Shown here piece by piece: positions 3,016 to 57,004 of a stretch of 64,000 nt of DNA. Below the pieces are notes generated by a model, which ran no database searches, was not told the origin of the DNA, and was given only the letters and a program-made list of their open reading frames with translations. Made by a program: the position numbers and the translations under genes. Where the stretch lies: the NCBI GenBank assembly GCA_001599935.1, contig BCIJ01000039.1:1-64000 (forward strand). Reading direction: 5' to 3'. Within the stretch, counting starts at the first letter, position 1, and each line of letters opens with the position of its first letter. This stretch comes from Holtermannia corniformis. Its lineage: Eukaryota > Basidiomycota > Tremellomycetes > Holtermanniales.

Positions 3016-3173
3016 GTTTGTCTAGTACAAAGCCATGTAAGAAGCTTTCGAAGAGAAGCGTCATGAAGCACGACGCGACACGGCTAAATTATTGCATCCC
3101 CTCACTTTTCTTTTGTACACACGAAATCACCTGATCGGACAAGGTCCATGACTATTGCTGTAAGAGTCGAAGC

Positions 3174-5901
3174 TCAGGTAAACTTGACGACGCGCAAAAC
3201 GTGCCGTGTGCCAACGTGCTCCGGTTTGATCGCGCTTGCGCCGACAGCCCCGGCTGTCATCAAGACACCAGCGGGGTACTTTGCCTGCGGCATTGAAGGC
3301 AGCCAAACCGGTGCAACGCTCGGTTCCACGACGGATCGTGGGTGCTCGAACCCGCCGATCGGTTGATGGTCGGCGTAGAGTTCGGGCGAGTCGGTCATGT
3401 GGCGAGATTGACGGCGTGCAATGGTCGATGCGAGGCAGATGACGCCGTCGCGCTCGTCTGGAAGGGTCAGTTTGACGAGGGACGTCGAGCAGTCGTAACG
3501 CACAGTAGCGCACCGCTGCTTCGCCGCTGCTCCGACTCGAGTCACTCGTGTCTGCCTCTGCCAAGGCGCGGCGCCTGTGCACTTCATGCAGCTCCTGCAT
3601 GTTGCATGGTACGTCTGCCGGTGGCGTCTCCAGTCGAGGGGTAGCCCAGTCGAGGACCGGGCCGCCATCGTCACTCCACTGAGAAGAAAACTTGTTACTG
3701 TGTATTCGTGGACGTTGGCTTGGGATCTCGTAGTCGTCCAACTCTAGCGCACGACCGGCGACGACTGTACGCCACGACGCAAAGTCGACACTGGGTGGCA
3801 TGCTGGCAGCGACGCTGTCGACTAGGAAGTCGTGGTGCGTCATGACCGCCGTAGCCGACTGAACGACTCGAGGCCGGTGCGCAGTCCAGTGATTGCGCTT
3901 GAGGTCGAAAACATCAATCGCAGATACGTGCAGCGCCTGCGTTATCAGCGCCCGCGGTGTCGAGGAGCCCCAACTCACACAGAACTCGTCAAAGACGACA
4001 CCGTTCGCCTGCACGCCCTCTTCGACCGTCAATCCCCCGATCACTGCTAAACGCTTGTCACCGAGTGGGACGAGCGACGCGCGAAATCGCTCGATCGGTG
4101 CCGAGCCTGCAGTCGGGATCCCACCGGCTGGACGCTGGATGGGACTCGAGTCCACCCCTCCGGGCGCCGGCGATCGTTGCAGGCGAAACGCGCCTTCGGA
4201 GCCAGTGCTTGTCGATTCGTCTAGACCGCTCGAGTGTGCAGAATCGCCCGAGATGCGCGGACGGCGCCGAGTGCCACTCGTAGCTGGCTGGATGAACGGA
4301 TCGGACAGAGGCAAACCTTGATACAGAATCGGTAGAGCTGCGCTCGAGGAGCTGGATCCATGTGGCACTTCACGCCGGCGATGCTTTCTCAGCACGGGCG
4401 AGTCGTATTCCTGCCAGTTCCAGGTATCTGGCGTACCCGTACATGACAACTTGGCGAGCGAATCGAAAACGATCAGTGGGTTGCTCGTCTGACAGCCGCC
4501 TGATACAGTAAGCCTCGTTCCATGGGTGGCGGTCAACGTACCGTACACGTAGAGATCCCTCCCGATCACCGTCGTTGCGTGAGAGTACAGCGGCCGGTAG
4601 CGATCCGCGTTGACAAGTGGTTGCCAGGTGGCAGACGCGATCCCGTACACCCACGTATCGGAATGGTCCTCGCCAGGACGACTCCGGCCGCCATGTAATA
4701 CGAGCCACTCGTCAGCGACGCAGTCGAGCGAGTGCTCCCGTCGCGCTTCGGGCCATGGCGCATCGCAGTCATTAGCTGCGTCTCCGTTCTTCAGCTCTGG
4801 CGTGGCTGTGGTTGTAGTTGTTGCAGGAGTGACGACACTACTGCGGTTACTGTCTCGCCTCGATGTGCTCGACCCGCTTGCCCCACTTTGTGGCTCATCA
4901 CGGACCGGAGACGTAGTGATATCGACTTGACCCAAGTCGGCGACGTTGTCCGTCGTCGGCAAAGGTGGTAGAGGTGACTTTGGAGAGTTGACCCTCGCAG
5001 GGACGTCTACCTTTGAGCTGCCGCTGCTGCCAAGAAACCACAGCTTCCACGCCGCTTCCGCACTTGTCCGCGACGAAGCATGACCTTGGCCGAGCACCGT
5101 TGGAACGTCAAGCCGGAACAAGTCGCTCGAGAGGCGTACACCGCTGTCTCCGTCGATATCGTCGCTGAAGCGAGACGTGCAAGCGGCTTCTTGAGACGAG
5201 GGACGATGTTCGGCCGCGCCGTTTGAATTGCGTACACCGCCATAGATGTACAGACAGTTGTCGCGCGTACAAGCCGCGACGGATCCAGCGAGCGCTCCCC
5301 ACGTCGGGTGCTGGCCAGTGCCGAGTGATCCGCCTGCGTTCGATCCGCCGTGCGCTTGCGGCAGATTGACGACCGTGACAGGGAACGATCCCCAGCGGTA
5401 CGTCTCGAGACAGAGCACGTAGCACTTGGGTTCCGCCGAGAGAAACGGTACGTAGAGCCTACCGTGCATAGCGGCTGCAGCTTGTGGCGAGTAGGCTGGT
5501 GGCGCGACTGTAGGAGCTTCATCCTTGCGTGGCATGGGGAGAACCAGAGCTCGTGGTGCCAAAGGGTTGACCACGATATGATGCCGATATCCCAAGCTGT
5601 CATGAACTATGCGTTGCAGTGCCCGGCTCGTACGAGCGAGCCTCAGGAGGGTTCGTGTACTGACCGAGGCAAAGATTAAAGAAGTGATTTCGTCGGGTAG
5701 ATCCGCCAGGCCTGTTCGCGTTCGTTTCGCCACGATGTCTGACGTTCTGCGCGAGTCTTCCGGGTTGGCGCCTGCGACTCGCTGCGATCTCTGCTTTGCG
5801 TCCTGCGCCTCGGTCGTCTTTGTTCGACGCAGTGGCGGCCGTGGCGGGCTATCAGAGCTCACGCTAGCAGACGACCTTGCGCGTGTACGTTTGGCCGGCA
5901 T
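3174..5901 (-). CDS. F-box/kelch-repeat protein
   Basis: Probable substrate receptor of an SCF ubiquitin ligase: the F-box binds Skp1 and the kelch-like propeller would bind the substrate (family knowledge). The start is placed at MPAKRTRARSS (5901), although an in-frame Met lies 31 codons upstream. A basic Ser-rich N-terminus precedes the F-box GLADLPDEITSLIFASVS at about residues 65-110. Kelch-like blades follow: LYIYGGVRNS, EWLVLHGGRS...DTWVY, RDLYVYGTLT and RLAVIGGLTVEEG, with long Ser/Pro-rich insertions. The frame changes near 3500-3560: the upstream frame runs into an Arg-rich tail, while a different frame supplies a convincing end, VRYDCSTSLVKLTLPDER to HVLRVVKFT. A 10-nt imperfect duplication (GTGCGCTACT before GTGCGTTAC) or an unrecognised intron explains the switch. 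About 870-900 residues. Confidence 0.75.
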
Positions 5902-6521
5902 GATATCCGAGGTAGCTTGGTCTTGAACACGGCGAGTTGATTGATCCCACAGCTCTGGGGATGAGCGAGCCGTGCGCAACGTCTCACTGATCAATCCAAG
6001 ATGTCAGCTCTTTGTCCACTCAAAGTCCTTTGAGCGGTCATGCGCACCTCTGCTGCGCTACCAATCGCCCTCGTACACCTACCGCACGTCTTGTACAGTC
6101 TATATCTCCCCGGTGATGCTAGGCAAAGGAGTTCCAGCGGTTCGTGCTGCCGCGTGCTTGGCGGATTCCAGCGGCGCGGTACACGGCTAGCGGCGGCGAT
6201 GAAACGCCGTGAGGTCAAGGGGTTTGTTTGCACCCGTGTTGGTCTCGTCATGTCCGCGTTGGGTTGGTGCGGCGAGATCGTCCCTTCAGTAGCGAGTAGT
6301 CAACGTCGAAACCTGCTCAGAGTGTTCGGCACCGGGCGTTGACGTGAAAACGTTCCCGATCGTCGGATGCTCGAGGCACAGATTGCTTTTGCCCGGTGTG
6401 ATGGCGAGCCGTAACACTGCAATCACCAGGACCGCTTGGACCGACAAGGTTGAATCAGGCGCAACTATGCATGCACAGGAAGACCATATCACACCGCTAC
6501 CCCGGATCATCCATAAACCCT
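5902..6521. other. Intergenic, no gene seen
   Basis: This stretch lies between the F-box gene start and the end of the FKBP gene, both on the minus strand. The short ORFs in it show no recognisable motif or convincing splicing partner. It should hold the F-box gene promoter and the FKBP 3' region. Confidence 0.5.
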
Positions 6522-20670: not shown

Positions 20671-20907
20671 CTACTTATTCGACCGCGTCATCAACCTCAC
20701 CGCAAGTGCCGTCCTAGCCTCTGATAGATCAGAACTGTCTTGCTTCAAGGCAACAAGGTACTTCTCAAACGCCGACGAATCGCCGTCGGCGCTGTCCGCT
20801 TCTGCCCTCTGGGCACCAGTGGCGGTTGCAGAATTCGTCGACGACTGACCCAGTCGTCGCGCTTGCTCAAGCTGCAACTGTGCCAGGCGCCGTGTATCAT
20901 CGCTCAT
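20671..20907 (-). CDS. Small hypothetical protein, 78 residues
   Basis: Intronless ORF beginning MSDDTRRLAQLQLEQARRLG. It is rich in Ala, Ser and charged residues, with a predicted helix at each end (QLQLEQARRL; FEKYLVALKQD) and no Cys or Trp. I do not recognise it. It sits beside, and on the same strand as, the six-gene array but lacks the C-terminal Trp motif of that family. It may be a genuine small gene or chance. Confidence 0.35.
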   Translation of the reverse strand: MSDDTRRLAQLQLEQARRLGQSSTNSATATGAQRAEADSADGDSSAFEKYLVALKQDSSDLSEARTALAVRLMTRSNK

Positions 20908-21575
20908 GGTGACTCGTTCGGTGGACGTATTCTTCTTGCTTCACCTTATATCCCCAAGTCACACAAGATGCCTTTGTGTGCGCTCTGTTCAAATCGAAAT
21001 CGTGCACCCTCCGTTGTGCTCGTACTTCCAACTACGCGCGGGTTCAGCTTGGCATCAAGGGACCCAAGTGATCAGCGGAGAGTGGATGTAAGACCGCGAT
21101 AGCCCTTGACCTCAATCAAGGGAACTATAATGGTCTGCTTGAATTGTCTGCGGGGGTCATTACCCGTCCGAGCTTGGCACTGGTCTGCGCTGTGGCTGTT
21201 GTGCGCCCATGGCGACCCTATACACTTCCAGTCAGATTGTGAGCAAACAACGCAAAGAGTTGCACTGGTCGTGCGCGCACAAAACCTCACGGTCGCAGCT
21301 CGTGATTGTCACCCGGCGATTCGGCCGTATTCCCCAAAAGCCATCAGCCACGCTCCATTATGAATGGTACCGCCATCACATTCAAGTCCGCTGGTGGTGA
21401 TGACGGGACGGGGGAAATTGCCCGTCTCTCGGGGACAGAAGCCATGGACTCATAATCCACGCAGTCGCTGCCGAGTTGATTGGCTGCATGTATTGACTGG
21501 GTTGATGAGAAAAAGACAGCACGCAATTCCTAGGGGCCTAGCACAGGCCTGTCGGGGGTACTTGCGCAAAGTGCC
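20908..21575. other. Intergenic, no gene seen
   Basis: A 0.67-kb stretch at the downstream edge of the tandem array. Several unrelated short ORFs occur, with no motif and no splicing partner. Confidence 0.4.
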
Positions 21576-22028
21576 TCAATGCTTTTCCACCCATTCCCTA
21601 GCCCCTTCAATCGTCGGGATGCAGACGGAAGACTCGTCCCAGGCGCGCTTCTGTTCAGCTTGTAGCTGCTCTGCACTCAGTGACTCGTTCTTGTTCAAGT
21701 TCGAACCGATGCGCTTCCACACTGGCTCCCAAGGATCACCTGGCGTGCTCTCTAGTTCAGCATCAAGGTCTGCTAGCGCCTGCTCGAACCGCGCGTCGGT
21801 CGATGCAACGCCATGCTTCTTGCCAAGGCGGGTCACTGACTTGTGCGCCGTGTGGTATGCTTTATACACGAGCTCTTGCAGCTCTATCAGAGAGTCTCGT
21901 TGTACGATGACATCGTCGATGCTGTTGGCGTTGACAAGATCGGAGTGGCTAGCCGACGTGACATACAAACGGACCGCATCTGTCAGCGCAGCCGTGGCTA
22001 GTGACGCCTGTTCCTCGAACGAGCTCAT
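21576..22028 (-). CDS. Tandem-array small helical protein, member 1
   Basis: Unrecognised, 150 residues, no intron. Starts MSSFEEQASLATAALTDAV and is almost entirely helix-forming. The position equivalent to the family SxxDF motif reads NSIDDVIVQRDSLIELQELV. A second helix pair surrounds VTRLGKKHGVASTDARFEQA. The C-terminus EGAREWVEKH carries the Trp shared by all six members. No signal peptide or membrane segment; one Cys. It is the most diverged member and the last in the direction of transcription. Cytosolic or nuclear location is inferred from the lack of targeting signals. Confidence 0.6.
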   Translation of the reverse strand: MSSFEEQASLATAALTDAVRLYVTSASHSDLVNANSIDDVIVQRDSLIELQELVYKAYHTAHKSVTRLGKKHGVASTDARFEQALADLDAELESTPGDPWEPVWKRIGSNLNKNESLSAEQLQAEQKRAWDESSVCIPTIEGAREWVEKH

Positions 22029-22289
22029 TGAGTGGAGCTATGCAGAGCGAACGAAGCGCTATGTACACGGCGGTACATATGGTGCCAATCCCACACGATC
22101 GAAGACCTGTGGTGATTGCTGTGCCTTCTCGCGAAGGCAATGTCCGCGGAGACGGCGTACTCTGCACCGGTAAGACCGACTGATTTGCGCCCTGAAATTG
22201 CTGTACAGAGGCAAATGCCACACGAGAGGTCCGCGATCACCGCGGACCTCGATGGCCGTCCATGAAGCCTTGCATGTCCACAGAAGCTG

Positions 22290-22727
22290 CTAATGCCTCA
22301 GCGCCCACTCCCGATACTGCGCGAGCTGAGCTCTCTGCTGCGCGTCCTCCTCTGAGAGTTGCGTGTCGAGTTGATCCAGCATGGCATTCAAATCGGGTCG
22401 AAAAGCTGTTGCTGAATTCTGCATGATTGTCTCAGATTCTCCCAAGGCCGCTTCAACCACAGACGATTGGCGATCCAGAGAGCACTGATCCGCAAGTCCT
22501 TTGATCAGCTGCCTTGTCCCCCTATACTCATCCGTGTAAGTAGTGATAGCCGCCAAGAACTGGTCGTGGCTGCGCTGGAAGTCATCGTATGATTTGACAG
22601 TACGGACAAAACTCGTCTTTGTAGCGAATGTAGCAGCCGCTGCATGCAGAGGCTGCAAGACTTCTGCAAGCATGTGCTTGAAGACTGTCTCACGGACTTG
22701 TACCGAGTTGTTTTCCTCATTCGACAT
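22290..22727 (-). CDS. Tandem-array small helical protein, member 2
   Basis: Unrecognised, 145 residues, intronless. Starts MSNEENNSVQVRETVFKHML. A helix with LQPLHAAAATFATKTSFVRT leads into the shared block VKSYDDFQRSHDQFLAAI, then TDEYRGTRQLIKGLADQ, ESETIMQNSATAFRPDLNAM and a C-terminus LAQYREWALRH. It is most like member 3: PLxxAxxxxxxxTxFxxTVxSxxDF and EY/RT are shared. It stands 262 bp upstream of member 1. Confidence 0.62.
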   Translation of the reverse strand: MSNEENNSVQVRETVFKHMLAEVLQPLHAAAATFATKTSFVRTVKSYDDFQRSHDQFLAAITTYTDEYRGTRQLIKGLADQCSLDRQSSVVEAALGESETIMQNSATAFRPDLNAMLDQLDTQLSEEDAQQRAQLAQYREWALRH

Positions 22728-23127
22728 GGTGGTTCCGCGGAGAACCTCGCCGAGCTACGTCTGTGACTTGCCGAGAGTGGTCGCGCGACCGTTTGGTTCC
22801 TTTCAGCCTTGAGCGAGCAAAGTGGAGCGAAGATCGTCGTGCAACGAGGGAAGTCGATTCTGATCTCAAAGTGGTCATCCATCTTGCTCTGTGAGATGGT
22901 CTTCTGGAAATCATGTAAGGGATACTTAGTGGCGGTCGGCGTTCACACTGAAGACGAGCCATCTCAGACGTCGACGAGCGCTGTCACTGGAACCGCCAGG
23001 AAGATAACCGTGCTTCTCTCATTCTATGTACGACAGTCACACTGCAGTGGCAAATCCGTTGCCGAGAGCCCGTGGCCGCAACGCGATGAAAACCTGAAGG
23101 CCTCAAGGGAATGACTGTGCATGCATA
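22728..23127. other. Spacer between array members 2 and 3
   Basis: A 400-bp spacer with no separate gene recognised. It probably contains the promoter of member 2 and the 3' end of member 3. Confidence 0.4.
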
Positions 23128-23562
23128 TCAGCCTCGATTCTTCAACTGCCTTGTCCAGTCCCTAAGATCACGCAGATAAGCTTCCTTGCGCGCCTCGGAA
23201 ACAGCCGGATCCGACCCGAGACGGTTCACGAGCTGATTGACCGAAGGACGAATTTCATCGGCCAGACTTTCGGCGATGGCTTGAGCGCGAATCAAAGCAG
23301 CGCGCACGGGTGAACTGGCTTCCGAGAGTCCCAAACCGGCTGCTACGCTCGTAATGTCTGCTTGCGTCCTTTCATACTCGTGGATAAAAGTATCAATGGC
23401 GTTTAACAGAAGACTCTTGTGCTTGTTGAAGTCTTGGAAAGAATCAACAGTTTGTAGGAAATTGGTCTGAGCTCGGTAGTCAGCTGTAGCAGTTTGCAGG
23501 GGCTCGAGCAAAATGTCCGAAGCGGCGTTGAAGACTTTCTCGGTGTCCGTACTAGCTGACAT
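23128..23562 (-). CDS. Tandem-array small helical protein, member 3
   Basis: Unrecognised, 144 residues, intronless, no Cys. Starts MSASTDTEKVFNAASDILLE. Contains PLQTATADYRAQTNFLQTVD, then SFQDFNKHKSLLLNAIDTFI, HEYERTQADITSVAAGLGLS, RAQAIAESLADEIRPSVNQL and the C-terminal LRDLRDWTRQLKNRG. Alternating amphipathic helices suggest a four-helix bundle or coiled coil (inference). It is the clearest reference sequence for aligning the array. Confidence 0.65.
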   Translation of the reverse strand: MSASTDTEKVFNAASDILLEPLQTATADYRAQTNFLQTVDSFQDFNKHKSLLLNAIDTFIHEYERTQADITSVAAGLGLSEASSPVRAALIRAQAIAESLADEIRPSVNQLVNRLGSDPAVSEARKEAYLRDLRDWTRQLKNRG

Positions 23563-23996
23563 ACTGGATGGAATGGTTCATCAGCAAAACATATTCTGCG
23601 CTTTTTGTACCTGATCTCACGGAGCTCATAACAACACTAATGACCAGCGACGCAGTTCGAACCGCCTTCTCTGAGAAGGTGATTGCTCCACTTGACTACT
23701 GAATGATGCGGCATGGCGTCCAGCTAAGCGAGTGGTAGCTCACACGGCCGATCTCCTAACAATCCCCGTTAAGCGCAGTCAGACCTCAGTCGTTGTTTCT
23801 GACGGTATGCCGACTCTTGCAACAACTGCTTCGCAGCCCATACATCGTGTCTTGTCACTGAAACAACTTTACGAGGCACACGATGCTGCCTGCGATGTCT
23901 CACGAGTTGCTTCCATATCCGCCGAACTGTTTGCGACAGGAAGGCTCTCGGTCGAGCAACACCGGAATCACAAACGAGACCACTACCATCTCGCCT
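23563..23996. other. Spacer between array members 3 and 4
   Basis: A 434-bp spacer. A short open stretch (ITFSEKAVRTASLVISVV on the minus strand near 23650-23700) has no start or partner, so no gene is called. Confidence 0.4.
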
Positions 23997-24452
23997 TTAA
24001 CTCGTTGATGATGATCCCGTCCATAACCGAAGTTTGCGAAGAAGGACCTCGTCGTCAGACGGTGGATCCTTGACGAATTCGTCCGTTTCTTCAGCCAAGC
24101 GAGTTTTCACGGTCACAGTAGAGTTATCGGCAAGTGTCTTGACTTGAGCCAGCACAGCCTGGACTTCTTGTGACCTCTCATCGAGCTGGTTGGACTTGGC
24201 GTCCCGCTTGATACTTACCTCCACCTGTGTCTGGATATCTTCGAAGTCTCTAATGGTGTCTATAATCTTTGACTTTGCAGCGTCCAGCTTGGCGCAGGAC
24301 GTGAAGCTGTCCGCTAGCTCGCTCAACTTTGTCGTACAAGCACTTGCTGCTTGCGTCATAGATTCGAGATGCTTCTTGACCATTTCATTGAAAGCATTGA
24401 TCCGCTCAGATTCGGTCGGCCCGTTCAATATATCAGGCAGTTGGTATGACAT
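23997..24452 (-). CDS. Tandem-array small helical protein, member 4
   Basis: Unrecognised, 151 residues from MSYQLPDILNGPTESERINA; an upstream in-frame Met at 24611 would add 53 residues but gives an unlikely start. Helical blocks include FNEMVKKHLESMTQAASACT, LADSFTSCAKLDAAKSKIID, DIQTQVEVSIKRDAKSNQL and VQAVLAQVKTLADNS. The C-terminus LLRKLRLWTGSSSTS keeps the shared Trp. It has three Cys and no introns, and is strongly diverged from members 2 and 3 but has the same layout. Confidence 0.58.
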   Translation of the reverse strand: MSYQLPDILNGPTESERINAFNEMVKKHLESMTQAASACTTKLSELADSFTSCAKLDAAKSKIIDTIRDFEDIQTQVEVSIKRDAKSNQLDERSQEVQAVLAQVKTLADNSTVTVKTRLAEETDEFVKDPPSDDEVLLRKLRLWTGSSSTS

Positions 24453-24795
24453 GTCTCCGTTCGGTGTACAAACGCTTGTGTTTCCAACCACAGGCGACTC
24501 TCTTTCTTGTACGATGTGTACATAGTGTAACGGGCGGGTCAGAGAAGACAACTCAGAGAAAGGAGCCACTTCACATTTCTCGCACCGCTGAAGCACCGCT
24601 TGATAAAGCAAGAATCCTTGAATTCACGGATAGGATGATAGCGTCAGAGAAAGGATCATGAAGATTGTCTGGTGTACCTGGTACGTTCATGTCAGGCTCT
24701 ATGTAGTTGATTTCAGTTAGCAACCGAGTCACGTCTGAGTCAACGTCGATGCTTCTATGAGAAAAAAATGGGACAACGAGTATCGTCTACTGAGC
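24453..24795. other. Spacer between array members 4 and 5
   Basis: A 343-bp spacer, slightly A/T-richer (AAAAAAA at about 24762), with no gene seen. It should hold the promoter of member 4. Confidence 0.4.
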
Positions 24796-25236
24796 CTATG
24801 AGCGCTTATTCAGCCACTCTATGAGTGGTGCCAGATCATCCTCCCGATCTGGAACGCCGGTGTCCGTTCCAAGTTGAGTGGCCAAAGACTTCCAGTAATC
24901 CTGGGAATTGGCCGCGGCGTTGTCTGCAATCTGCTTTGCTTTAGACTGTGCTTTTACGACTGACTCGTGTGTTTCCGCGATGCCAAGCTGCCTAGCATCT
25001 TCCGTCATCTGGGTCGTTGCTTTGCTGTGGGCAGCTAACACATTGTCTATGAGTTCTTGGATATTTGGTCGTTCTTGTTTGAATTCCGCAAAGTCCGTGA
25101 CCGCGGCCAGTTGCTTAACGCCTTCTTGGTAGCTTGTAACAGATTCTTCTATCTGCTTAAGGCTTTTTTGAACACCGTTTGCAAAGATGCTCAGTCGAGT
25201 AGTCTCGGGAATGGACAGTACCGCCGGGTCAACCAT
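24796..25236 (-). CDS. Tandem-array small helical protein, member 5
   Basis: Unrecognised, 146 residues, intronless, no Cys. Starts MVDPAVLSIPETTRLSIFAN. Blocks: VQKSLKQIEESVTSYQEGVK, the shared AVTDFAEFKQERPNIQELI, LAAHSKATTQMTEDARQLG, KAQSKAKQIADNAAANSQDY, SLATQLGTDTG and the C-terminus LAPLIEWLNKRS. The pattern of a short non-helical start, about four helices and a terminal W with basic residues equals that of the other members. Confidence 0.62.
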   Translation of the reverse strand: MVDPAVLSIPETTRLSIFANGVQKSLKQIEESVTSYQEGVKQLAAVTDFAEFKQERPNIQELIDNVLAAHSKATTQMTEDARQLGIAETHESVVKAQSKAKQIADNAAANSQDYWKSLATQLGTDTGVPDREDDLAPLIEWLNKRS

Positions 25237-25486
25237 GTTGTCACGATACCTGGGATGAAGGTCGTGGACGCCTAGCTGCTGCCTTATATAGCCCGTGGGC
25301 CGGCCTTCTAGACTTTGCCGCCGTCAAGCATATTGTGGAAGACGAGCCGTAATGTACATGTAGATGTGTCGAACACCACTGTACAGTGCGGTTACACCAA
25401 GATGCGTCATTGACTTCCGAAGGCGCTTCACACCCGGGAGTTGCCGCCTGTTTCACTTCGGAGCGGTGGCATACAGCGTCCAGGTC

Positions 25487-25879
25487 CTACTGCTGCTTTC
25501 TCAACCATTGTTCCAACGGAACCAGGAGCTCCGGATTCACCTTTGGATCACTGCGAAGCGCATTGTACATCGTACACCAAGAGCCCTTCGTCAAGCGCGT
25601 GCCTTCTTCTAGGATCTCGTTGAAGCGCTTCCCAGCAAGGATCACCCGCGCGTCGTTCGCTCCCAGACTATACTCGGTTTCGAGCGCAGATAGCTGCCGA
25701 TCTGCTGTCGTTGCTGCGCTGTGTACTGACTTGATGGCAGCGAGGACCCCAGGCTTGTGAGCCTGGAACGCGTCTGCGCTCGCAACGTGCAAAGACTCGG
25801 TGATAGAGACATAATCTTGCACACACTTCGCCAGGGAGTCGCAAATCGAGTTCGCCCTTGACGCGTACTCGTCCGACAT
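25487..25879 (-). CDS. Tandem-array small helical protein, member 6
   Basis: Unrecognised, 130 residues, the shortest member, intronless. Starts MSDEYASRANSICDSLAKCV, then ITESLHVASADAFQAHKPGV, LAAIKSVHSAATTADRQLSA, YSLGANDARVILAGKRFNEI and the C-terminus LVPLEQWLRKQQ. It has three Cys. First in the array by direction of transcription; 219 bp separate its ATG from the stop of the DHHC gene upstream on the same strand. Confidence 0.6.
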   Translation of the reverse strand: MSDEYASRANSICDSLAKCVQDYVSITESLHVASADAFQAHKPGVLAAIKSVHSAATTADRQLSALETEYSLGANDARVILAGKRFNEILEEGTRLTKGSWCTMYNALRSDPKVNPELLVPLEQWLRKQQ

Positions 25880-26097: not shown

Positions 26098-27602
26098 TTA
26101 CGATGCGCCACTTGCGCACTTTGCCTTCTCGCGCAGACGACCTTGAACCGCAGGCGCCAGTGGCCACTTCAACACGTCGAGCGTACTGATTTGCAATCAG
26201 TCCAAGGCGCATCGCGATGCAACATTCCATACCTCGGCTTCCAAACCTTGAGGCAGTCCCACCCCTTGCCCATAACGAGTTGCCAATTCGCGCGCGGGCC
26301 AAGATCGTAGGGGTTCTCGTTAGGTTCCGTCCAGACGATTCGACCACGACCATTGCCGATTGGCACCCAGAAGGAAGATTGCGATGAGAGGCGCGCGATA
26401 TCAGCATCGAGAGCTAGAGGGACACCATCGGGAGGCAGGCTTGCGCGCTTTGCTACCAACTTGGCGTAGGATCGACCTCGACCGTAATCGACTGTCAGGA
26501 GTCCTTGCCGGACAAAGCTGATGGTGTTGACAGCCAGACCCTACGGAGTCGGATCAGCGGTAGCACTGACCGCGCAATCGACTCACGAGAGTGACAGTGA
26601 TCAGAGGTACACCAAAGCCTACCAGGCCAAGCAAGCCGAGGTCTGCGTCGTCGACACTCGTGCCGCCACTTGGTGGACAAGCACGCCAGCCAAGGACCGT
26701 GCCGCCGATCCATCGCCCGACAGGACCACCGACAACAACCCATGATCCCCACCAGTCCCACCACCACGCTCGCAGCACTGGATCTGCCCGAGAGAATGCT
26801 ACGACGCGGCGGACTTTGCGGTACAGCGGAGTATAAACCGGAAGGGAGAGTAAGAGGATGACGGGGGCTGACAAGAGAAGCAAATGAAGGAAAAGCTTGA
26901 GATGAGGGGCTGTCAAGCAATTGTTAAACTACTCGCCATCAGCAAGGTCGCCTCATCAAGATTACAAGCTCACGATAGGACAGTGATGGTCAAATCCAAC
27001 ACGGCAAATGCCACAGTCGTTGCAATGCCGAGCTCTTGCTGGCTTCCACCGACCACCGCAGCGACCTTTATCACATGTTTGCCATGCCGGTTTATCCACA
27101 GCTTGATCTCGTCCGATCAGGACGGGCGGGGCGCATTCGACAATGTCCGTGTCGGATTGTAGCCAAGCCGGAGGGTGTTTTGGCGGGGTCGACTGATTTG
27201 CGGGCAGGAAGAGCAATTTGAGGTACAGTAGGGTGATTGCGGGAATGGAGATGTTTGTGAAGACGATGTATGTGACTTGAAATGTCAGCATCCGGTCGTG
27301 CGACCAGCCAAGCTCACCTCCAAGCGTCTTGTGCCCCTTTGTGTGAATCAACCATGCTGCAGAGATCAGTCATGCTCATGCTGGCGAGCCAGTGTCTCTC
27401 ACGTCCGATCTCGAAGGTGCATCTCCACCAGGCAGAGCTGTTCTCGTCAGCTGAGAGGCCAGCAGCAAACACCATGAGCTCACAAGAAGTAGGTCAGCAA
27501 GGCGGGAGGGATGACGCGACCGAGGACGTTGTTGGGCCGCAACCAGCGTCGGCCTCCCTGCTGGCCTCTTTCAGCCCTTGGCTTGGGCGCTGGTGTAGCC
27601 AT
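26098..27602 (-). CDS. DHHC-type palmitoyltransferase
   Basis: Integral membrane protein S-acyltransferase. The start MATPAPKPRAERGQQGG at 27602 runs into NVLGRVIPPALLTYF and, across three short introns, SAWWRCTFEIG, WLIHTKGHKTLG and the membrane segment VTYIVFTNISIPAITLLYL. The Cys-rich catalytic domain has KPARARHC, NDCGICRVGFDHHCP (active Cys in DHHC). Further hydrophobic segments (LKLFLHLLLLSAPVILLLS; DADLGLLGLVGFGVPLITV) precede the family C-terminal motif ENPYDLGPRANW. It resembles the fungal Pfa4 type. The final exon after KVWKP is chosen from splice grammar and may be wrong; alternatives end at about 26030 or 25954. Confidence 0.82.
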
Positions 27603-29039: not shown

Positions 29040-30716
29040 CTAGTAGCCCTTCTCGTCCCCTTCGCCCTTGCCCTTGTCCTTCTCTTGCTTCTCGCGCTCC
29101 TTGTCCTTGTCGTTTGTACTAATGTCTTCGGCCTTGACGCCGACGGCGTTTGCGCGCGCTTCGAGCTTTTTCTGTTCAGGCGATTTGGCATCTTCGAGCT
29201 CTGCGTGGGCGTTTGAGATGCGGTTCTCGACTGTGAACGAGAGTGTTAGTGGTGTGCGTCAGAGGCTGGATGGGCTGCGCGCAGGCAAACGGCTGGTCAA
29301 GAGATGGACAAAGCGATGGTTCGCTCGACTCCAAGTCTTGGGCCAGGCGCCGCCCCAACGAACAAAGTACATCAATCGACTCACTCAAATCATGCAGTGC
29401 CAAGACGGTCCGGATGATCCCACTCAGATACACAACGGCCATCTGGTCATTCACATCGACCCTGAACGCCTTGCCCGTCACGCCATCATCCCCAAGGTCC
29501 GGCAACAGGTTGATGATGTCCTGGAGCTGGTAGATGATCTGGTGATTGACGGGCAGTTTGCGCTTCTCGACCGCGCGGAGGTAATCTCTGATCTCAAAGA
29601 TGCGAGTGCGGAGGCCCTTGAGCGAGTTGAGCTGGGCGTTGACGCGGGATGTGAGGGACGAGTTTGTGAGCAAAGAGGCGCCGGGGGTGGGGATATCGCG
29701 AAGGAGATGCTCGACGCCAATCTCTTCGGCTTCTTCGGCTTCGATCGTGGACGGGACGTGGGTGAACGTTCGTTGTGTTGTTGTGCCGTCCTGTGTAGAG
29801 GTAATCAGCGCTCGAGTCGTGCGCGGCCTGCGCCGCTCTTCCATTACTTGGTTAACTCACATCTTTGATCTCCTCGACGGCAAAGTATGCATCCGTTGGG
29901 ATCCCCGTGTCTCCCCGCCCGCCTGTCGCTCTTACATCCACAATCACCATGACAGGGCGTTCGCAGAATCGCTTGAACAGTTCCGAGATCTGGAGGTCAG
30001 AGCTTCGCAGCCTTGGACCAGTATGGTAGAAGCCGATCGGGCGCTCCTTGGCTGAGCACGTGGGTTAGTCACCGTGCGTATGGCGCTCTGCTACACACCA
30101 TTGACTTTTCGGAACATGCTCCACATTTCAGCAACATAGTCGAGGTCTAGGAACCACGTCTTGGCGTTCCCGTCGTCCTCTTCAAAGGGGATGGCGAAGC
30201 TGGAAGAGTCAGCGCCAGCTACGAGGTGGACAGGAGTCATTGCAGCCACGCCGGACTGTCTTCCGCAGCTTGCAGCTATCCAAGCAGGCTCATGACTGCA
30301 AGCTACGCCCGCTCTCCAACTAAGCAACTCACGAGTTGGCCACGTTGATCGTCTTGCCATCGTCCTGGCCCAGGAGCACACCGAGCACTCGCTTCTTGTT
30401 TGGCATCGGTACTCTTGAAGCGTGGTCTACTACCTGTAGGATACGTGTGAGCAATAGTCGCGTGGCCAGTCGAGTAGCTGAGCTCACCGAGAGGAGGACT
30501 AGTGGGTGGATGACGCTATTCGGCATTCATCAGTTCTGTCCAGCCGTATCGCCTAGTGCAGCAGTAGCCAGAGCGACCCAAACGCCGCTTGGCCACTGGA
30601 GCGAATCAGACGCACACGTTGGTCGCCGTCATCTCGTTGACCTATACCCCGTCAGTTGTGCGACTTTGGAGCTCGTTTCAGCTCATACACACCTCTGCCG
30701 TCGTCATACCCTTCAT
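29040..30716 (-). CDS. RPN8: 26S proteasome regulatory subunit Rpn8
   Basis: Lid subunit with an MPN domain lacking the catalytic metal motif; it pairs with the deubiquitinase Rpn11. Short 5' exons (MKGMTTAE, VNEMTATNV) join to VIHPLVLLS, DHASRVPMPNKKRVLGVLLG and NVANSFAIPFEEDDGN. Then come WFLDLDYVAEMWSMFRKVN, KERPIGFYHTGP, RFCERPVMVIVDVRATG, AEEIGVEHLLRDI, LPVNHQIIYQLQDIINLLPD and NDQMAVVYLSGIIRTVLALH. The charged tail ends GEGDEKGY. Two in-frame ATGs (30716 and 30707) are possible starts. All family landmarks are present. Confidence 0.93.
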
Positions 30717-34227: not shown

Positions 34228-35319
34228 CTAATTGACCGCCACTGCTGCATGCTCTCTGCGCACAGCAGAACCAAGGTGGCCCTGACCCTGCAGCTGCTTC
34301 TGGGCGTCCAGCATCGCCTGCTCGTCACCTGCAGCGCAACGTTTGGGCATGGCCGAGGGGTTGCTAGCCTGGTGCGGCGCCTCATCCGAGGCCGCAATCG
34401 AGCTCTCACCGCCAATGGTTGTCCCCGTAGTTTGGACCGACCAGTCAAAGACGTAGTCGTACTGAAAGCCCTCGCGCACAAACAAGTCACGGAACAGTTT
34501 GCGAAGGTACGAGTAGTCGGGCTTGTCGTCGAACCGAAGCGAACGGCAGTAATTGAGATAGATAGCCAGCTCGTTGGGGAAGCCGCGGCACAGGACCTCG
34601 GCCGGCGTCGTCATTTTTTTTTCCATGATCCGGTCAAACTTTTGTTTCTTGGCACCCGCCTTGAGACCCTGCCACGGGAGTTGACCGCGAAGAAAGTAGA
34701 TGAAAACGTAGCCGAGCGACTCGAGGTCATCACGGCGCGACTGCTCGACACCCAATTGGGTGTTGATCGAAACGTAACGGACCGTACCACACAAGCCCTT
34801 GTTCTCCTTGAACGGGATGTGCGAGTGCGTCTTGGGGTCACGGTACTTCTTGGCCAAGCCAAAGTCGATCACGTTGACCTGGTTTCCGCGTTTGCCGGTA
34901 CCCATGAGGAAGTTGTCGGGCTTGATGTCACGGTGGATAAAGTTGCGCGAGTGGATGTACTCGACGCGCGAGATCAACTGGTCGGCGAGGAGGAGCACAG
35001 TCTTGAGTGTGAATTTTCGGTTGCAGAACTTGAACAGGTCCTCGAGTGACGGACCGAGCAAGTCTACGACCATGGCGTTGTAGTCACACTCTGTGCCGTA
35101 CCACCTGACAAATGGCACGCCGCCACCGCCGGCAAGGCTCTTGAAGACCTTGGATTCATATTCGAGCTGCGGGTGCTTGGTCTTGATCGACTCGAGCTTG
35201 ATTGCAACCTCTTCGCCGGTGACAATGTTGATGCCAAGGTAGATGTCGCCGAACGCGCCACTGCCAATCTTTTTCCCGATGCGGTACTTGCCGCCAATGC
35301 GGAGGTCCATCGAGCTCAT
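34228..35319 (-). CDS. Casein kinase 1 (Hhp1/Hrr25/CK1-delta type), intronless
   Basis: Ser/Thr kinase of 363 residues. Seen: [13 protein letters not shown] (glycine loop), VAIKLES (Lys), the CK1 motif [29 protein letters not shown] (catalytic loop), [43 protein letters not shown] and [15 protein letters not shown]. The short tail is Ala/Gln-rich. The normally invariant GTARYAS activation segment reads GTVRYVS here, and [11 protein letters not shown] differs slightly from the usual ASINTHLGIEQ. It has no intron, although most genes in this window have several, so a retrocopy is possible. Catalytic residues are intact. Confidence 0.93.
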
Positions 35320-53859: not shown

Positions 53860-54038
53860 TGCGCCCGAGTCGGCTGTCTTGTATGAGCTTGAGCAGCAGA
53901 GTAAGATGAGAGCAACGTATGCAAGATGTACCCTACATCGCCTACACCATGGCGTATATAGCAACCCCAGATAGTCCATGCAGTCCAACTCGACAACCAC
54001 AGCGTATACTCCAAGTCGCCAAGTGACAGCGTGCGATC

Positions 54039-57004
54039 ATGTCCATGTCCATGGGGCCGTCCAAGCGAGGCCGGGCAAAGATTGTACGTGTCTCGCCATC
54101 GCATCCAGCAGCTGACACGGATCAGCGTCCGCCGCCAAAGAAGGTCAGCTCGCATTGCTCCTCATCCGTCTCTTGCTAAAGCCCTCAGCTCGGGCCAGAC
54201 ACGTCCATCACAGATACATGGGACAAGCTCGCCCATGCCATCCGCGAGATCCAAAACCACAATGCGTCAAAGCTCTCATTCGAGGTCTACTACCGGTACG
54301 CGTACAACATGGTGCTCTTCAAACGTGCGTAGCGTCTGCACGGGCGATGCTGATGTGGCAGATGGCGAACTGCTGTACAATGGCGTCAAAAAGCTGATCG
54401 CAGAGCACTTGAGCCGGCTCGCAGAGCAAAAGATTGTCCCGACATTCCCGAGGAGCAACGTGTCGTTGGGCGCTGGCAAGCTGGGAGGTGGCGCCGAGGC
54501 CGTCGAGCGCGGCGTCGAAGGCGATCGCTTTCTCAAGGCTCTCAAGAGTGTCTGGGAAGATCATACCGGCAGTATGCGCAAGCTGCGAGACGTTCTGCGG
54601 TATATGGTAAGTGACACGGTGGCGGACAACCCTGACACCCGCAGGACAAGGTCTATACGGCTTCAACAGGCGTCGCCGCCACGTACGATCTCGGGTTGCA
54701 CCTCTTCCTCACCGACATTATCCGATCCAAGACCGAGCCGATCCACACCCACCTGCTGTCCACTCTGCTGTCCCAAGTCCAGCTCGAGCGCGATGGCGAG
54801 ACGATCAACCGCTCGACTGTGCGCGAATGCGTCGACGTGCTGCTGAGGTTGACGCCCGGCAACATTGAAGGCGGTTGCAACGTGTATCAAGAGGATTTCG
54901 AGCCCGTCTTCCTCAAGCGCAGTGAAGAGTTTTACCGTCTCGAAGCCGAGCTGCTGCTCGAAAGCTGCGATGCGTCCGTCTACCTGCGAAAGGTGGGTTC
55001 AACCAGCTTGAGCGGCATTGACATTGCTAGGTCCAAATCCGGCTACAAGAAGAGGCCGAGCGCACCGTCAACTACCTCGCGACTTTCACTTCGAAGCCAT
55101 TGCAAGACATCCTGGTCCAACATCTCCTCACCGCCCATCTGAGCGCCATCCTGGAGATGCCTGGGTCCGGTCTCGTCGTCATGCTCGACAATGACCAGAT
55201 TGGCGACCTTCACCGGCTCTACACGCTGTTTAGCAAGGTGCCCGACGGTGCAGGTCTCGATGCGCTCAAAACGGGTCTGCGCGAGACCATCGCCGAGCGC
55301 GGCAAGTCGATCAATCAGGGTATTGGAGGGAGCGGGGTTGGTGATCAGGCCGTGGCGGGCATGGACCTCGACGAGCCGGCCGATCCAAAGGGGAAAGGCA
55401 AGGCGAAGCCGAAGGAGGCGCCGGCAGGATCACTGGCTCTCAACTCGGCGCTGCGTTGGGTGCAAGAGGTTCTAGATCTCAAAGACAAGTTTGACGCCGT
55501 CCTGCATGAGGCGTTTGAAGATGACAAGGGCGTGCAGACGGCCATCAACGAGGTGAGTGTATAGCACCACAGCACTTGACTGATCACGTAGGCGTTCCAA
55601 TCTTTCATCCACGCCAACCGCAAGGCACCCGAGTTCATCTCGCTCTACCTCGACGACAACCTCAAAAAGGGCGCCAAGAACGTGAGCATCCCGTCGTGTC
55701 AAAGAGACACTGCTGACGAGGGCAGAAAACCGAGGACGAGATCGACGTCGCGCTTGAAAAGACAATCATCCTGTTTCGGTTCCTGTCTGACAAGGACGTG
55801 TTTGAACGCTACTACAAGAACCACCTCGCGCGGCGGTTGCTTCATGGCCGCAGTGTATCGGACGACGCTGAACGCGGCATGGTCGCCAAGCTCAAGATTG
55901 AAATGTATGTTCAACGACGCCTTGCGGCTGAGACTGACGACGCAGGGGCTTTCAATTCACGCAAAAGCTCGAGGGCATGTTCAACGACATGCGCATCTCG
56001 GCAGAATCGGCACAGCCGTTCCGCGATCATCAAAGTCGTTCGGCGGTGCGTTCAGCATAGCTTCTGGAGCTAGAGCTCACGTGCACAGCCGCTACCATTC
56101 GAACTCGCCGTCACCGTGCTCACGGCATCCTACTGGCCGCCACAGGTCGTCGCGCCAACAGCATGCACCTTTAGTGGTCCATTGGCGAAAGGGCTTGAGA
56201 CCTTTCACAAGTTCTACGACAGCCGACACTCGGGTCGTCGCCTGACCTGGCAGTCGAACCTTGGTACGGCCGACGTTAAAGTGCGCTTCAAGGCGCGCGC
56301 GCACGATCTCAACCTCTCGACGCAAGCGTTGGCCGTGCTTCTGCTGTTTGAGGACGTCCGGGGTGATGAGGTCTTGTCGTATAAGGTGGGTTGGCATGAT
56401 GACGGCAACGCTGACTTGTCAGGATCTGCGCGCCGCAACCGACCTGCCCGACGGCGACCTGCAACGCACCTTGCAATCGCTCGCTTGCGGTAAGTACCGC
56501 GTGCTCACGAAAACCCCGAAATCGCGCGATGTGAATGCAAACGATACGTTTGCGTTCAACGACGCCTTTACGTGCCCACTGGCGAGGATCAAGATTGCCC
56601 AGGTCGTGAGCAAGGTCGAGACGCCAAAGGAGCGGAGCGAGACACAAGAGATGGTCGATGAGGAGCGCAAGCACCAGGTTGAGGTCGGTTACTTTTGTCT
56701 GCGTGCAAGGCGCTGACCTGCCCAGGCCTGCATCGTCCGCATCATGAAGGACCGCAAGACCATGCCGCACAACGACCTCGTGTCCGAGGTCGCGCATCAG
56801 CTCTCCTCGCGCTTTGCGCCGTCCGTGCCGATGATCAAGAAGCGCATCGAAGGGCTGATTGATGTGAGTTTCGTGCTTGCTCGTTGCGGTAGTTGACGCT
56901 GCCCAGCGCGAGTACTTGGAACGCGGATCAGAGATTAACACGTATCGCTACCTGGTATGTCGGGCCTGTGCGGCCACGATCCAAGCTGACATGGGTAGGC
57001 CTGA
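54039..57004 (+). CDS. CUL3: Cullin-3
   Basis: Scaffold of CRL3 ubiquitin ligases that use BTB adaptors. Exon 1 [15 protein letters not shown], an 18-nt exon RPPPKK (54126-54143), then [20 protein letters not shown] and [20 protein letters not shown]. Cullin repeats follow with YLRK..., [20 protein letters not shown] and a C-terminal cullin domain: [52 protein letters not shown], and [21 protein letters not shown] sequence. The neddylation segment is [20 protein letters not shown]. The last exons give [16 protein letters not shown]. The RIMK Lys is the expected NEDD8 site. A Lys/Gly-rich insert ([14 protein letters not shown]) is unusual. About 13 exons. Confidence 0.93.

Follow-up and report, generated by a model that had tools for sequence, protein, structure and literature searches.

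Small all-helical proteins are known from fungi in the HsbA/Mp1p group, and in the oomycete RXLR WY-domain effectors, which form gene families, a helical scaffold with a conserved aromatic core carries diverged surfaces. Genes without detected relatives may also lie grouped together: a study of Neurospora (PMC10684091) describes lineage-specific gene clusters of this type, many of them near telomeres and HET genes. The question of whether such genes are new or reflect a failure of homology detection is posed in PMC7660931. Here, we analyzed a window comprising bases 1–64,000 of contig BCIJ01000039.1 (C39; 136,760 bases) of the basidiomycete yeast Holtermannia corniformis (assembly GCA_001599935.1; 20.2 Mb, 55 contigs), in which six consecutive open reading frames (ORFs) on the minus strand, g1 to g6, occupy positions 21,576–25,879. 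Sequence comparison confirmed the six as one homologous protein family in tandem, apparently a real family and one undescribed as far as our searches reached.

Homology within the tandem array

The coordinates, strand, and lengths given for the six ORFs in the first-pass annotation were exact: g1, 21576..22028 (150 amino acids, aa); g2, 22290..22727 (145 aa); g3, 23128..23562 (144 aa); g4, 23997..24452 (151 aa); g5, 24796..25236 (146 aa); and g6, 25487..25879 (130 aa). ATG and stop were at alignable positions in all six members, and the five spacers between them measured 250–434 bp, which argues for separate genes and against six exons of a single repeat protein.

Homology was examined with leave-one-out profiles, each built from five members and searched against 2200 open frames of contig C39 (the window and further stretches) and 2200 reversals (4400 targets). 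The results showed that all six members were recovered, with E values of 6.3e-5 for g1, 2e-19 for g2, 3.3e-22 for g3, 1.6e-10 for g4, 2e-14 for g5, and 1e-9 for g6. Besides the five training sequences, the held-out member always ranked first, and the best other target across the six runs had an E value of 0.27. Pairwise local alignments, expressed as z scores against 300 shuffles, were strongest for g2–g3 (30), followed by g3–g5 (12.7), g3–g4 (11), g5–g6 (8.6), g2–g4 (8.4), g4–g5 (6.1), g1–g6 (4.6), g3–g6 (4.4), and g2–g5 (3.8). Six of the 15 pairs were at z ≤1.9, among them g4–g6 (0.4) and g2–g6 (1.9), which are at chance level. The weak link in these comparisons was g1, the most diverged member (isoelectric point 4.9), which carries a 14-residue insertion ahead of its last helix and reached z 4.6 with g6 and 0.6–1.8 with g2, g3, g4, and g5. 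Identity had been described as low, with members 2 and 3 alignable over their length, and this holds (g2 is nearest to g3, at 32% identity in the genome search); the leave-one-out recovery extends homology beyond that pair to all six.

The opposite strand was examined by picking one plus-strand ORF near each member; these ORFs overlap g1, g2, g4, g5, and g6 and leave g3 uncovered. Coding on the plus strand was rejected, as the tested ORFs formed no family (best E 0.059 in the six-sequence set). A 269-aa ORF (21364–22173, plus strand) lies antisense to g1, has its highest guanine-plus-cytosine (GC) content at codon position 2, and is without a Pfam match; for these reasons, it is probably a chance shadow of g1. 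In all six members, by contrast, GC content is lowest at codon position 2. Directly downstream of the array is a 78-aa ORF (20671–20907, minus strand) that begins with MSDD, has no Pfam match, and was not among the family-profile matches listed. Just upstream is a DHHC palmitoyltransferase exon (26962–27351, minus strand; 28.8 bits, cut-off 28.7), a useful synteny anchor.

Divergence, age, and relatives

Nucleotide identity was 32–45% in 15 of 15 member pairs, and unrelated frames aligned in the same manner averaged about 34%. Third codon positions were near the level of unrelated frames. Taken together, these values indicate that likeness has been preserved at the protein level, and the state of the third positions suggests that the copies are old; the tandem array thus looks old. 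The members had been called fast-diverging, and the divergence is indeed strong; with third positions so close to the unrelated level, however, fast divergence is not distinguishable from age. The further proposal of a birth-and-death family was not supported, because neither young, dead, nor dispersed copies were found: recent duplicates are absent from the 15 pairs, no match to the family at E <2 besides the six was present among pieces of at least 15 aa between 18 and 30 kb, and no convincing copies were found elsewhere in the assembly.

The assembly was searched with a profile-consensus query, in a procedure that ignores introns and scores first-look candidates only. All six members were recovered, at E values from 4e-28 to 4e-12; the best locus after them, on contig C17, had an E value of 0.99, so that at the sensitivity of this search the family is restricted to the array. 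Queries with single natural members gave nothing convincing elsewhere in the assembly. Matches on contigs C3, C5, and C17 (E 0.22, 2.4, and 0.99) were rejected; the family profile reached at best E 9.8 at the C3 locus and gave no match on C5.

Furthermore, a database of 5.8 billion proteins was searched. The g3 query gave zero matches at E ≤1e-3 (119 candidates), and the six-member alignment gave zero matches at E ≤10 (3612 candidates sharing short words). The casein kinase ORF of the window (34228–35319, minus strand) served as a positive control. Of the 7989 sequences scored for it, 7230 matched, and Kwoniella, Cutaneotrichosporon, and Phaffia ranked high among the best 120, indicating that annotated basidiomycetes of this kind are present in the database. 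For so diverged a family, the absent matches may be taken as moderate evidence of lineage restriction, short of proof. The description of the family as lineage-specific is therefore plausible, although the pattern may instead reflect homology-detection failure.

In agreement with the view that the array belongs to no known family, no database relative was found, and no Pfam family exceeded its cut-off in any of the six members. Weak matches in Pfam, NCBIfam, and PHROG each concerned one member of six, except for one unnamed PHROG family found in two (best E 0.024); the strongest of them, NCBIfam lipo_EMYY (E 1.6e-4, one member), was treated as compositional. Searches of the PDB by sequence and by structure gave no significant match: the six-member profile, in what served as a second control against chance, reached at best E 0.056 among 177,635 sequences, on a helical filament of designed appearance. 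Among viral structures, the best Foldseek E value was 0.28 (g3 query only). In a literature search, which covered largely papers available without subscription, no title among those listed described such a protein family.

The members had also been characterized as intronless in a genome of intron-rich genes. This is true, and a casein kinase 1 gene on contig C2 is split by introns and matches in five separate pieces; intronlessness is nevertheless weak evidence, because other long frames in the window are also uninterrupted, namely the 363-aa casein kinase ORF and a 955-aa frame with F-box and Kelch domain matches (3127–5994, minus strand).

Predicted fold and proposed role

AlphaFold2 models were built for g3 and g6, with the six sequences as alignment input. 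The g3 model contains helices at residues 2–32, 42–76, 84–116, and 123–142 (predicted local distance difference test score, pLDDT, 87.1; predicted template modeling score, pTM, 0.76), and the g6 model contains helices at residues 2–28, 35–69, 77–109, and 116–128 (pLDDT 91.0, pTM 0.78). Once g6 is shifted by seven residues, its helices 2 and 3 coincide with those of g3 at both ends, and helix 4 coincides at its start. The earlier expectation of about four helices per member therefore stands for g3 and g6, with matching boundaries and the same confident four-helix model in the two of six members that were modeled.

Thirty-eight alignment columns were flagged as conserved, and 30 of these were hydrophobic in at least five of six members, under a flagging rule that favors that broad class. 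Trp136 (g3 numbering here and below) is the sole invariant residue, in line with the C-terminal Trp reported for every member. The reported S/T-x-x-(D/E/A)-F block was less regular, with S in five, D/E/A in five, and F in four of the six; the basic residue described after it is K, R, or H in all six, and position 49 is the sole column basic in every member. The block coincides with the beginning of helix 2, and its Ser immediately precedes the helix, suggesting that the block may act as a helix N-cap. Other conserved positions are Ser41 (five of six), an acidic residue at position 98 (five of six), D118 (four of six), and R134 (four of six). No catalytic signature or active-site pattern was seen among the conserved columns.

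The members are acidic and hydrophilic (isoelectric point 4.8–5.9; grand average of hydropathy −0.28 to −0.56). The reported lack of a signal peptide was upheld by a crude hydropathy and splice scan that included upstream exons and is not a dedicated predictor: none convincing was found in the members or in upstream exons. The best hydropathy among upstream-exon candidates was 1.78 for g4 and at most 1.17 for the others, with no candidate for g1. Hidden signal-peptide exons were rejected, since the value for g4 is unremarkable against 242 control ATGs, 34 of which reached 1.6 and 13 of which reached 2.0.

Small intracellular binding or adaptor proteins are suggested by several features together: a conserved core without an evident catalytic pattern, an acidic and soluble character, and a strongly diverged surface. 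We propose, with a probability of about 0.5, that the six act as binding or adaptor modules with different partners and go back to a single small gene without introns. Duplicated in tandem long ago, this gene would have given six separately translated paralogs, presumably expressed, each encoding an acidic four-helix bundle that would be soluble and located inside the cell. Selection would have kept the packing of the core (hydrophobic residues spaced 3–4 residues apart, the helix 2 N-cap, the helix 4 Trp, and the one basic position of helix 2), and the remaining surface would have diverged almost fully. Each paralog would not be an enzyme but may, through this diverged surface, recognize a partner of its own inside the cell, most likely another protein.

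Signals of coding in the DNA were modest. Mismatch was 0.62, 0.56, and 0.71 for the first, second, and third codon positions, with position 2 lowest in 12 of 15 pairs; in 25 control sets of six unrelated frames, aligned at the protein level in the same way, mean mismatch was 0.66, 0.60, and 0.72, and the members' position 2 was lower than in all 25. As the control shows that protein-level alignment alone yields much of this pattern, the statistic supports coding only weakly. A purine at −3 in five of six members also gives weak support, and a TATA-like element lies about 54 bases before the g5 ATG (about 25285–25291).

Several of these observations weigh against six expressed paralogs of one bundle. 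The codon-position pattern is weak: position 1 was matched by two of the 25 control sets, and the difference between positions 3 and 2 falls inside the control range. Constraint is visible between ancient paralogs only. The purine at −3 is missing in g1, a clear TATA-like box is present in g5 only, and no promoter word common to the members was found in a test that was strict and whose null was also zero. In addition, the models cover two of the six members and are not independent, because both were built from the same six sequences.

The array is of interest because its protein family, although without detected relatives, is established as real by internal homology and by a predicted fold common to two members. 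With arrays of this kind, genes that are truly new can be better told apart from failures of homology detection. Orphan families of this sort are already familiar, and the present results neither make this array extraordinary nor bear on a long-standing question as yet. A more far-reaching interpretation, to which we give little credence, is that the six represent an undescribed family of intracellular helical recognition proteins, conserved in fold and diverged in sequence, with partner-specific paralogs that might, for example, serve in self/non-self recognition or help a basidiomycete yeast to defend itself against genetic parasites.

Alternatives, other window genes, and known systems

The likeliest alternative, which we still consider rather unlikely, is that the six are diverged versions of a helical-bundle protein that is widely conserved (for example, of syntaxin Habc, MIC60, or spectrin-repeat type), with relatives beyond detection and a housekeeping role. 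Bundles of the Sso1/Sso2 type were among the best natural fold neighbors of the g3 and g6 models, with scores within the helical-bundle background. No syntaxin or SNARE family appeared in the Pfam scan of the members, and syntaxin-12 appeared in the PDB profile search at E 0.21 only.

It is improbable that the members are small lipid-binding or lipid-surface proteins, with amphipathic helices that would open at a membrane or lipid droplet, like those of exchangeable apolipoproteins, or with a fatty-acid-binding bundle like that of HsbA/Mp1p. The helices are amphipathic, and complexes of AfMP4p with fatty acids appeared in the g3 Foldseek list (E 0.40, probability 0.60); the AfMP4p alignment, however, had a template modeling score of 0.37 and a root-mean-square deviation of 14.2. 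Similarly, a weak match to Phasin_2 (PF09361; E 0.0066) was limited to g5 and, at 17.1 bits, was below the cut-off of 24.9. HsbA (PF12296) matched none of the six at E values up to 10 and nothing in the genome, and the lack of a convincing signal peptide in the crude scan also speaks against this role.

We are equally doubtful of a role as effectors, directed at a host or exported by unconventional secretion, or as factors of self/non-self recognition, with the scaffold conserved and the surface variable. The conserved helical scaffold, the invariant Trp, the strongly diverged surfaces, and the tandem arrangement without detected relatives are all consistent with such a role. On the other hand, the scan that revealed no convincing signal peptide counts against it here too, no TTAGGG-type runs occur in the first 2 kb or the last 2.76 kb of the contig, a Pfam scan of 20 other ORFs from part of the window found no HET or NLR domain, and there is no sign of copy-number turnover. 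Finally, although 159 ORFs in the window reach 100 aa and the codon-position pattern is only slightly stronger than in unrelated frames, the idea that the six are chance ORFs of helical composition rather than genes is close to refuted: leave-one-out profiles recovered all six against reversed decoys, and the members also share one strand, are of like size, and start and stop at matching positions.

Outside the array, the 363-aa ORF used as the positive control is a casein kinase 1 gene of delta/HRR25 type, uninterrupted and on a long branch, in which we take the kinase motifs to be still readable. In comparison with the intron-split copy on contig C2 (about 353941–355321), it looks like a diverged retrogene; a further partial match lies on C31. 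In a 30-row kinase tree, the window copy grouped with Kwoniella and Cutaneotrichosporon (support 93/88); its branch is very long, which makes its place unsure and the copy a poor gauge of how near the best database relative lies. Against 11 references, the C2 kinase scored highest with Kwoniella (614 bits) and Cutaneotrichosporon (604), with Phaffia at 595, and its first piece was 98.9% identical to Cutaneotrichosporon. A tremellomycete is thus the likely source of the two kinase genes. The ORF at 29176–29844 (minus strand) contains a MitMem_reg domain (PF13012, E 5.2e-33) and is presumably an MPN-type proteasome or eIF3 subunit, and a Cullin match (PF00888, E 1.2e-8) lies at 54031–54846 (plus strand).

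Among known systems, the Habc or closed bundle of syntaxins such as Sso1 and Sso2, an antiparallel helical bundle of similar length, may resemble the predicted fold, whereas the members show no notable sequence match to it and are too short for a SNARE motif and membrane anchor. The HsbA/Mp1p proteins are likewise small and all-helical, as the six are, and differ in that the six have no match to the PF12296 hidden Markov model and no convincing signal peptide. With the oomycete RXLR WY effectors the likeness is one of design logic only and does not imply homology; the six come from a different kingdom and lack both a convincing signal peptide and an N-terminal RXLR, with RxLR-like strings seen by eye in g3 and g4 only near the C-terminus. 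Compared with the Neurospora clusters (PMC10684091), the array likewise gathers genes without detected relatives in one place, but its genes are mutually homologous, and the parts examined contain no telomere runs or HET genes.

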